Shown one piece after another: positions 66 to 63,984 of a DNA stretch of 64,000 bases (position 1 is its first letter; each line of letters opens with the position of its first letter). The stretch is taken from the NCBI GenBank assembly GCA_021296135.1, contig JAGWAZ010000002.1:1-64000 (forward strand), in the 5' to 3' direction. Position numbers and translations under genes: made by a program. Source of the DNA: Chlorobiota bacterium (lineage in GTDB: Bacteria > Bacteroidota > Ignavibacteria > OLB7). Below the pieces are notes generated by a model. The model was not told where the DNA came from and did not search any database. It saw nothing but the letters and a program-made list of their open reading frames with translations.

Positions 66-311
66 GAACACCCTCTTCCTACTCCGTGGTCCGTAATACC
101 TATTACCCATAAGGACTAAAGATGTTTCTATCGCTTTCCAGTTTTCAGTCTTTATCGTACCCATATCAAAGTTAGCGAGACACTATGAAGGGGTGGTAGG
201 ACAGATGTCCATTTTTATAGGACTTTTCCGAACTATTACAAAAAGATATAGTTGAGACTGAACGCCCGTTGGTTGGTTGTTGGTTGTCAGAGGCCAAGAG
301 AATCACATCGT
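66..311. other. Gene-free stretch
   Basis: No convincing coding region on either strand. The short ORFs called here (252-470, 277-639) run through the palindromic element downstream and have no protein-like composition. Confidence 0.5.
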
Positions 312-412
312 CCCAGCCGTAAAGGGCTGGGCTATGGAACGGCATTTACTCCCGAACGTTCGTCTACCCCTAGCCCCGGCGTTTACGCCGGGGTCACAAG
401 AGTACTCTCGAT
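312..412 (+). repeat. Composite palindromic (REP-like) element, copy 1
   Basis: Three palindromes lie within about 80 bp. Hairpin A is CCCAGCC/GGCTGGG with a 6-nt loop (312-331). A 10-bp perfect palindrome CGAACGTTCG follows at 353-362. Hairpin B is CCCCGGCG-TTTA-CGCCGGGG (374-393). The last 34 bp (379-412) recur at 26060-26093 with one mismatch. The GC-rich paired arms and dispersed copies resemble REP/BIME elements mobilised by REP-associated transposases; that assignment is inference. It lies just beyond the degenerate 3' side of the truncated minus-strand gene at 453-728. Confidence 0.6.
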
Positions 413-452
413 ATCAACGGATCGATCCATTATACAGAAAATCTTTGTGCCG

Positions 453-24852: not shown

Positions 24853-25848
24853 GTGGTAAGTCGAATTCGAATAATGTTGAAGGCAGATTTGAGTATTCTG
24901 TTGAAATATGCTGCAGCTCGTCGAACCCGGATATGGGCCTTGATCGTTGCTGGAGCTATCGGAATGTTTGCTTTTTCAGCCGATATGTTGCTGACAGCCG
25001 GAGCGGCTCCAGGCACGGATGAAGAAGAGACTCCGATTACACCCGAAATATCCGTCGATCTCGATTCGCTTTATTCGGCCAAAGCAAGTGAAGATGAAAC
25101 GGCCGATAGTAGCTACGTCGAGATTCTGGAACCACGGCATACAATTGAGGGGCATGTCAGTTGGTACGGCGGCAGATTTCATGGTCGCAAGACAGCTAAT
25201 GGTGAGCGATTTGACATGAACAAGATGACTGCTGCACACAAAAAGCTCCCCTTCAATACAATTGTCCGAGTGGTAGATACCAGAACTGGCAAGGCAGTGC
25301 TCGTGCGGATCAACGATCGTGGCCCTTACATCAGAGGTCGCGTCCTCGATCTTTCGCGCGAGGCAGCTTCACGTCTTGGTATGAAAGGGCGTGGTACCAC
25401 CAGTGGACGTCTCGAGATGTTTAACGATGAAGAAAGAACTCTTCAGGTTGGAGACGAAGAACACGTTCTTCGGTTTGTGACCTTTGATAGGGACGTCAAT
25501 GGAGCAAAGCCTAACGGTTGGTCAGTGATGGTTATTGAGGCAGAGAGTTTTGATGAAGCTGTCAAAACACATAACGGGCTCACCGATGAGTATGACAAGG
25601 TCTTTCTGACACGAGTGATTGAAAATGGCGACACGCTCTGGAGAGTTTCAGTTGGACTCTACGATGAAGATCGCCTTTCACGTGGCCTGCATCTGGAACT
25701 TGTTGAAAACTATACCGACGCCGTAGTCATACAGTTTCAGGACGGATTTCCAGAGATACCCGCTCTCAGCAATGATGTAGCGGTAGAAGAGCTTAGCGAG
25801 GGAGAAAGTATAGCTAGCAGTCCGTTGAAAAAGTCGGAGAGTGAGTAG
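24853..25848 (+). CDS. rlpA: RlpA-like septal ring lytic transglycosylase with SPOR-like domain
   Basis: 331 residues. N-terminal membrane segment (WALIVAGAIGMFAFSADMLL), a linker rich in acidic residues, then the double-psi beta-barrel domain of RlpA (residues ~95-195): GHVSWYGGRFHGRKTANGE, LPFNTIVRVVDTRTGKAVLV, RINDRGPYIRGRVLDLSREA. These are the hallmark motifs of RlpA, which cleaves denuded peptidoglycan glycan strands at the septum. After it comes a SPOR-like repeat (WSVMVIEAESFDEAVKTHN ... WRVSVGLYDEDRL). It has a membrane anchor instead of the lipobox seen in E. coli RlpA. A GTG start at 24853 is used by the track; an ATG six codons later is equally plausible. Confidence 0.87.
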   Translation: MVSRIRIMLKADLSILLKYAAARRTRIWALIVAGAIGMFAFSADMLLTAGAAPGTDEEETPITPEISVDLDSLYSAKASEDETADSSYVEILEPRHTIEGHVSWYGGRFHGRKTANGERFDMNKMTAAHKKLPFNTIVRVVDTRTGKAVLVRINDRGPYIRGRVLDLSREAASRLGMKGRGTTSGRLEMFNDEERTLQVGDEEHVLRFVTFDRDVNGAKPNGWSVMVIEAESFDEAVKTHNGLTDEYDKVFLTRVIENGDTLWRVSVGLYDEDRLSRGLHLELVENYTDAVVIQFQDGFPEIPALSNDVAVEELSEGESIASSPLKKSESE

Positions 25849-25890
25849 AGAATGCTTAGCGTAGCGTATAGTCCCTTTACGCATATCCGA

Positions 25891-25909
25891 CCTGCCTGCA
25901 GCAGGCAGG
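25891..25909. repeat. 9-bp perfect inverted repeat upstream of transposase stump
   Basis: CCTGCCTGC-A-GCAGGCAGG. It lies 21 bp before the transposase start codon and may be part of the element's end or a leader hairpin. Confidence 0.5.
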
Positions 25910-25930
25910 CGCACAGAAGGAGTCCGTTGT

Positions 25931-26164
25931 ATGTCGATGAGCAAGCGTCGAGAAAGTCAGCAGCAGCAGATGTGGGTGCAGACACAGGACCTGCCCGAGG
26001 CGCCGGGACATCCGTTTTATACCCAACTCAATACGCTGCTGGCATCGCATCGATTTGATGCGTTTACGCCGGGGTCACAAGATTACTCTCGATGCAATCA
26101 GGCCATTGATGGCCTTGGCCTCAATCTACAGAGTCTCTTTCGGCGAATGAGAATCAAGAAGTAA
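25931..26164 (+). pseudogene. N-terminal stump of a DDE transposase (IS1182/IS5-like)
   Basis: A good ribosome site (AGAAGGAG) and ATG open a reading frame whose first ~45 residues match the start of IS1182/IS5-type transposases: QMWVQTQDLPEAPGHPFYTQ, then LNTLLASHRFDAF. In such proteins FDxFVE continues into a ~400-residue DDE domain. Here the match ends exactly at DAF, inside the first bases of the 34-bp core shared with position 379, and the rest is unrelated. So only the 5' end of the IS survives, fused to a REP-like element. The 77-residue ORF is unlikely to be functional. Confidence 0.65.
26060..26093 (+). repeat. REP-like element, copy 2 (right half only)
   Basis: 34 bp identical to 379-412 except one base. 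Only the right arm of hairpin B is present; the left arm (CCCCG) is replaced by transposase coding sequence, with GCGTTT common to both sides of the join. Thirteen bp downstream is a further palindrome, GGCCAT-TG-ATGGCC. Confidence 0.6.
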
Positions 26165-63514: not shown

Positions 63515-63579
63515 GGATCAGGGATAAGGGCGGAGAGAAGAAGGATGAAACAATGTTGAGAGAGATAGTGAAGAACGTT

Positions 63580-63984
63580 CCGAAGTGGATCTGTACGCCG
63601 AATTCTGTACGCTACCACCAATGTGGTTACGCTGCAGTCATTTATCTGGAAACCAGATTACTCTGATCCTCGAGCAGCCTACCCGACGCCGCTCTACCGC
63701 AGGCAGAGGAGTGGACAACTTCACGGCGTCTGCTTGGCCTTGCTCCGCGTGGGGTTTACACTGCCATCCCGGTTACCCGAAGATGCGGTAAGCTCTTACC
63801 TTACCATTTCACCCTTACCCACCGTGGCGGGCGGTCTCTTTTCTGTTGCACTTTCCGTCGTCTCTCCAGAATTCTACGCTAACTGGATTGGACGCCCCCG
63901 ATGTTATCGGGGCACGCTGTCCTGTGGAGTTCGGACGTTCCTCTCCGATACAAAGTATCGGAGCGACTGCTCGATCCACTTCGG
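63580..63984 (-). ncRNA. rnpB: RNase P RNA (class A), complete
   Basis: Read on the minus strand, the ends form a perfect 12-bp P1 helix (CCGAAGUGGAUC / GAUCCACUUCGG). Between them are the conserved class A elements: GAGGAACGTCCGAACTCCAC near the 5' side, ACAGAAAAGAGACCGCC, GGGTAAGGGTGAAATGGTAA, the P13/P14 segment GTGTAAACCCCACGCGGAGC, GGGTAGGCTGCTCGAGG and the 3' part CAGATAAATGACTGCAG. This is the catalytic RNA that matures tRNA 5' ends. It is convergent with the TPR gene across a short purine-rich spacer. Track ORFs inside it (such as 63585-63791) are shadows. Confidence 0.95.

Follow-up and report, generated by a model that had tools for sequence, protein, structure and literature searches.

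A family of TAG-footed REP units that pair as inverted A/B heterodimers in a Chlorobiota bacterium genome

The composite palindromic element close to the start of the window (the whole stretch of DNA analysed here, 64,000 nucleotides of contig JAGWAZ010000002.1 of a Chlorobiota bacterium) consists of two inverted REP units of different types and is one copy of a dispersed, extragenic family in this genome. It probably belongs to the GTAG-tagged superfamily of REP/BIME-class repeats, and we propose that a RAYT acting in trans spread it.

Structure of the window element and its second copy

A repeat finder recovered from the window an inverted repeat CCCAGCC/GGCTGGG at 312-318/325-331, another, CCCCGGCGT/ACGCCGGGG, at 374-382/385-393, and the palindrome CGAACGTTCG at 353-362, all of which had been noted within 312-412. 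The features of this element (copy 1) and of its second copy are as follows.

289..311, minus strand: 3' flank of REP unit A, equal to the end of the dimer spacer (plus strand AGAGGCCAAGAGAATCACATCGT)
311..335, minus strand: REP unit of type A, ATAG followed by the CCCAGCC/GGCTGGG hairpin (minus strand ATAGCCCAGCCCTTTACGGCTGGGA)
336..369, no strand: inner (tail-to-tail) linker of ~34 nt, containing the palindrome at 353-362
370..394, plus strand: REP unit of type B, CTAG followed by the hairpin CCCCGGCG TTTA CGCCGGGG
394..412, plus strand: 3' flank of unit B, TCACAAGAGTACTCTCGAT
25811..26065, plus strand: IS1182-type fragment (left end and transposase N-terminus; ORF 25931-26164), joined at GCGTTT to copy 2
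26060..26127, plus strand: copy 2, a unit B truncated at its 5' end, plus the dimer spacer with a second hairpin AGGCCATTGATGGCCT at 26100-26115

The layout of three palindromes in ~80 bp, left without a name in the original prediction, is that of a tail-to-tail REP heterodimer whose linker carries a palindrome. Copy 1 is a TAG-inside A-B pair, with the TAG feet of both units pointing inward across the linker. Both units matched the family covariance model (unit A, 39.6 bits, E 3.1e-6; unit B, 39.8 bits, E 2.7e-6), and the strand of copy 1 folded better than shuffled sequence (z = -3.28). The 3' flank of unit A is common to C14:66153, C62:15403, C102 and other copies, and the inner linker recurs in varied form at C117, C99, C80, C4 and C82. 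Similarity to most copies ends within the flank of unit B, where other copies continue as GCAATCAGGCCATTGATGGCC. An Rfam scan of the window gave no match at the repeat element and identified RNase P alone, a bacterial class A RNA gene at 63578-63982 on the minus strand (271 bits).

A 34-bp core at 379-412 had been reported to recur at 26060-26093. The window indeed holds two occurrences of it and no more; they differ by a single G/T change, and the chance expectation is 0.00. The description of this second copy as the core with half a hairpin held for the core; the family homology is longer, covering 26060-26127 and including an extra hairpin. Copy 2 is identical at 68/68 positions to a stretch of another contig (L056, C90:4354-4421), which is nearer to it than copy 1, and shares 85-95% identity with at least 18 further places.

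Nor is copy 2 intergenic by origin, as had been supposed, because its left side (25811-26065) is a fragment of an IS1182-type transposase element. This fragment has 80% DNA identity to a less damaged copy on contig C65, whose protein gave a weak match to the IS1182 transposase family NF033551 and a match to PF05598. The C65 transposase reads GATGCCTTT where copy 2 has GATGCGTTT followed by the REP stem ACGCCGGGG, suggesting that the GCGTTT with which the core begins reflects microhomology at the junction. The simplest reading of these alignments is that a junction formed at the shared GCGTTT and cut unit B mid-stem, and copy 2 is a chimeric scar rather than an independent half-element. The IS1182-type element, which starts at ~25811, also supplies the final ~12 codons of ORF 24853-25848, a gene that resembles an RlpA-type lipoprotein by eye.

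A genome-wide family of A and B units

The assembly searched comprised 2.86 Mb in 132 contigs (99.8% complete, 0.18% contamination), and copies were counted from genome searches and retrieved stretches. The original prediction depended on there being further copies, and a BLASTN search with window positions 300-430 against this assembly returned 84 matches. Most of them spanned query positions 1-36 or 72-113 alone, which correspond to one hairpin each. Read in one orientation, the two hairpins share a common plan, in which the foot is TAG, the stem is GC-rich and 8 bp long, and the loop is TTTA, with ATAGCCCAGCCGTTTACGGCTGGGA as the type A unit and GTAGCCCCGGCGTTTACGCCGGGGT as the type B unit. 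A covariance model built on 44 distinct units gave 142 matches at E <= 0.5 across the genome. Once opposite-strand duplicates and matches weaker than about E 0.003 had been removed, ~118 distinct units were left, in ~68 clusters. This count is probably a lower bound, since 27 of the 68 clusters lay no more than 500 bp from a contig end, in zones making up 4.6% of the genome. The REP clusters thereby help to explain why the assembly breaks at many intergenic points.

The units behave as expected of REPs, being short imperfect palindromes in many dispersed copies with a covarying 8-bp stem. Pairing held for 92% of the stem cells in the 44 distinct sequences, and 36 stem cells had changed on both sides, compared with 13 after shuffling. 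The covariation score was 0.307 against 0.089 for shuffled alignments (reached in 0 of 500 shuffles). The relatedness of the copies inflates this shuffle control; slid structures, which keep the relatedness, also scored far lower (at most 0.055). With hairpins chosen blind to the foot, TAG preceded the hairpin on its 5' side in 62 of 78 type A and 28 of 30 type B units. The tetranucleotide foot was GTAG in 23/30 type B units, and ATAG (49/78) or CTAG (13/78) in type A units.

Neighbouring units were strongly clustered, with 50 pairs within 250 bp compared to ~10 expected from random scatter over an assumed 12% of intergenic DNA. At gaps of up to 140 bp, all 17 TAG-outside pairs and all 17 TAG-inside pairs combined an A with a B unit, where 41% would be expected, and head-to-tail pairs were A-A in 23 of 26. 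TAG-outside pairs had either a short spacer of 26-27 nt, TTGAAGGGTCGATGCAATCACAATC, or a long one of 87-94 nt with AGGCCATTKATGGCCT and further stems, and the TAG-inside linker was mostly ~36 nt. Inverted REP pairs with conserved linkers, the mark of BIMEs, are therefore present in both polarities with recurring spacers. A consensus fold of several stems was common to five long-form dimers, and the folding of three real copies gave z values of -4.5 to -5.3. At one locus (L060) the spacer is intermediate, apparently because the long form underwent a deletion between AATCA repeats. Units occurred singly, in pairs or in arrays without fixed outer ends; arrays reached five units, the longer ones being mosaic. 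Doublets were not significantly better conserved than singlets in these small samples (A, -0.026, p 0.78; B, +0.042, p 0.125).

Other short dispersed modules were seen amid REP units in intergenic mosaics, namely tandems of CTCCTTGTCTCC, and ATCGTTAATCTGAAATCGAAC, CATCAGTGTTTATCAGTGTTCTGTTTTAG, GGGTCGAGAGTCGAG and CCTTCGACAAGCTCAGGATG. Such mosaics occupied L060 (1-800), L055, L053, L057 and other intergenic stretches.

The family is extragenic. Of 44 clusters with ORF calls, 38 lay outside ORFs of at least 110 aa, and those overlapping ORFs mostly met short, doubtful ones. Where both neighbours were known, the flanking genes were tandem in 15 cases, convergent in 8 and divergent in 3; the ORF calls were mechanical, making these context counts approximate. 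Together with the ~118 units, the TAG feet and the inverted A/B dimers, this location bears out the prediction of a dispersed, hairpin-rich and intergenic REP/BIME-like family. The genome also encodes a T9SS sorting domain, which makes it look like a member of the Bacteroidota.

Distribution, transposase genes and rival explanations

The window element had no match in any of 40 relatives, four of them from the same family, and among 395 other genomes of the phylum the full long-form dimer matched a single one, along just 22 nt. On the evidence of these searches, the A/B composite is confined to this genome. Among 196 other genomes of the class, 34 gave matches to the bare hairpin model; these have stems such as ATAGCCCCGACATTTATGTCGGGG, and their second hairpin is not that of this family. 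A two-hairpin type, ATAGCCCCGACATTTATGTCGGGG followed ~20-35 nt later by GGGCTTTAGCCC or similar, was observed in several families (L101, L104, L105, L107). Phage and plasmid collections contained no match to the repeat.

Across all GTDB species genomes, the exact A-type hairpin was matched 8 times, by a small number of distant MAGs (Acidobacteria, Neomarinimicrobiota, Tenebribacter). These matches have unrelated flanks and are read as independent repeats of the same general type. In the Acidobacteria MAG RBC074, TAGCCCAGCCGTTTACGGCTGGG occurred four times (L092, L093, L095), again with unrelated flanks, and the same hairpin core thus seems to have arisen more than once.

A linked Y1 (TnpA-REP) transposase, for which the original prediction had called, was searched for and not found beside the repeats: searches with Y1 and REP_Tyr_transpos models revealed no RAYT flanked by REPs in this genome. 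Its Y1_Tnp matches were IS200-type copies and one RAYT-like gene (C125:32389-32997). This gene scored 53 bits where the cut-off is 80, and its place between cas9 and cas1 puts it ~19 kb from the closest REP of that contig. The same placement of a RAYT-like HUH gene, exactly between cas9 and cas1-cas2 in type II-C-like CRISPR operons, was seen in two genomes of different families (C125 here and G126:C18), the two proteins being 46% identical; a third genome (G136) carries a 77% relative of the G126 protein without cas1 beside it. A strict perfect-stem scan found no TAG-hairpins within ~1.5 kb of 19 RAYT relatives. It is very unlikely that the HUH enzyme of C125, the one REP-transposase-like enzyme left in this genome, has been co-opted by the CRISPR locus and still acts in trans on the ATAG/GTAG heterodimeric REPs. 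RAYT-type genes were present in 33 of 34 hairpin-positive genomes of the class and in 124 of 162 others (Fisher p = 0.004, uncorrected for relatedness). Their presence in nearly all hairpin-positive genomes makes a RAYT in trans, present or lost, the likeliest agent.

The repeats might instead be MITEs of a cut-and-paste or IS200/IS605 transposon present in the genome. Several IS200/IS605 tnpA copies do occur, and the IS1182-type fragment adjoins copy 2. However, the left end of the IS1182-type element is unlike the repeat, and the occurrence of units singly, in pairs and in arrays, with no fixed outer ends, is not what MITEs would show. IS200 ends were rejected as the source of the hairpins, because the IS200 copies bear other hairpins (TCGCCTTTAGGCGA, CTCGCCTTATAGGCGAG) and no repeat match was found at their ends. 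A MITE origin is accordingly quite improbable. Unlikely, too, is the view that the hairpins serve primarily as transcription terminators or as 3' structures stabilising mRNA, and multiplied through their usefulness to flanking genes. Covariation of the stems indicates that folding was maintained, and the clusters are mostly intergenic, lying mostly between tandem or convergent genes, as this view would have it. Yet no T-tract follows the stems, the terminator scan flagged none of them, and arrays of up to five units exceed what a terminator needs; presence in one genome alone also speaks for spread rather than conserved function.

Chance similarity, assembly artefact or contamination can practically be dismissed. 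The concentration of 27 clusters near contig ends does indicate that assembly was troubled there, but a short-read assembly is expected to end contigs at repeats, and many copies sit well inside long contigs, flanked by different genes (for example C65:62817-63225 and C117:22374-22457), which already refutes an artefact. The zero chance expectation of the core and the completeness and low contamination of the genome point the same way. Spread by a RAYT in trans, with the family now largely relict, remains the most likely explanation.

Proposed mechanism and comparison with known REP systems

In each REP unit, an unpaired RTAG foot precedes a GC-rich stem of 8 bp closed by a TTTA loop, and the diverged A and B versions pair up as inverted heterodimers. 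Under the proposed mechanism, a RAYT (TnpA-REP, an HUH/Y1 enzyme) would bind the hairpin as single-stranded DNA, cut at the RTAG foot and move single or paired REPs in trans to intergenic DNA. Arrays may later have grown and decayed through recombination and small deletions. We infer this RAYT step, as well as any effect that the repeats may have on RNA or DNA topology. In this genome the family seems to be a relict or to depend on an unlinked enzyme.

GTAG REPs have an unpaired TAG-type foot, a stem of 5-13 bp and a short loop, are mostly extragenic, and form homo- and heterodimers of both polarities with 20-100 bp spacers that are sometimes structured (PMC3733652). The present family shares the TAG-type foot, the stem and loop sizes, the heterodimers, the structured spacers and the extragenic location. 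It differs in that unit A mostly carries ATAG rather than GTAG, and in that head-to-tail A-A pairs, few in published GTAG families, are common (23). A linked RAYT is not obligatory for GTAG REPs, because REPtrons may be missing through deletion (PMC3733652), and the strict A/B inverted heterodimers described here, lacking a linked transposase, provide an actual example of REPs that persist with no REPtron. A survey lists GTAG repeats in Proteobacteria, Cyanobacteria, Chloroflexi and PVC, and not in Bacteroidetes (PMC3733652); the TAG-footed REP family described here belongs to a genome that looks like Bacteroidota, for which that survey lists none of the GTAG kind. The RTAG-hairpin repeats of the class (ATAGCCCCGACATTTATGTCGGGG with GGGCTTTAGCCC; L104, L107), which are multi-copy in several genomes, share the foot, the stem length and the TTTA-type loop with this family, but their stem letters and second hairpin differ and they lack the A/B composite.

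REPINs are inverted REP doublets with the TAG outside and a spacer between, over-represented relative to chance (PMC3116915). TAG-outside inverted doublets with a spacer are likewise commoner than chance here. However, each doublet joins two diverged REP types, many units are singlets, there is no cognate linked RAYT, and the conservation of doublets over singlets seen in Pseudomonas REPINs was not found. The family is of the REP/BIME kind and is not formally filed as REPIN, given the ATAG foot of type A, the many head-to-tail pairs, the lack of a doublet conservation signal and the host group. The BIMEs of E. coli consist of alternating inverted REP variants with conserved linkers, assembled into mosaic arrays. 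Alternating inverted variants, linkers and mosaic arrays are likewise features of the family described here, whose sequence, linkers and spacers are unrelated to those of E. coli.
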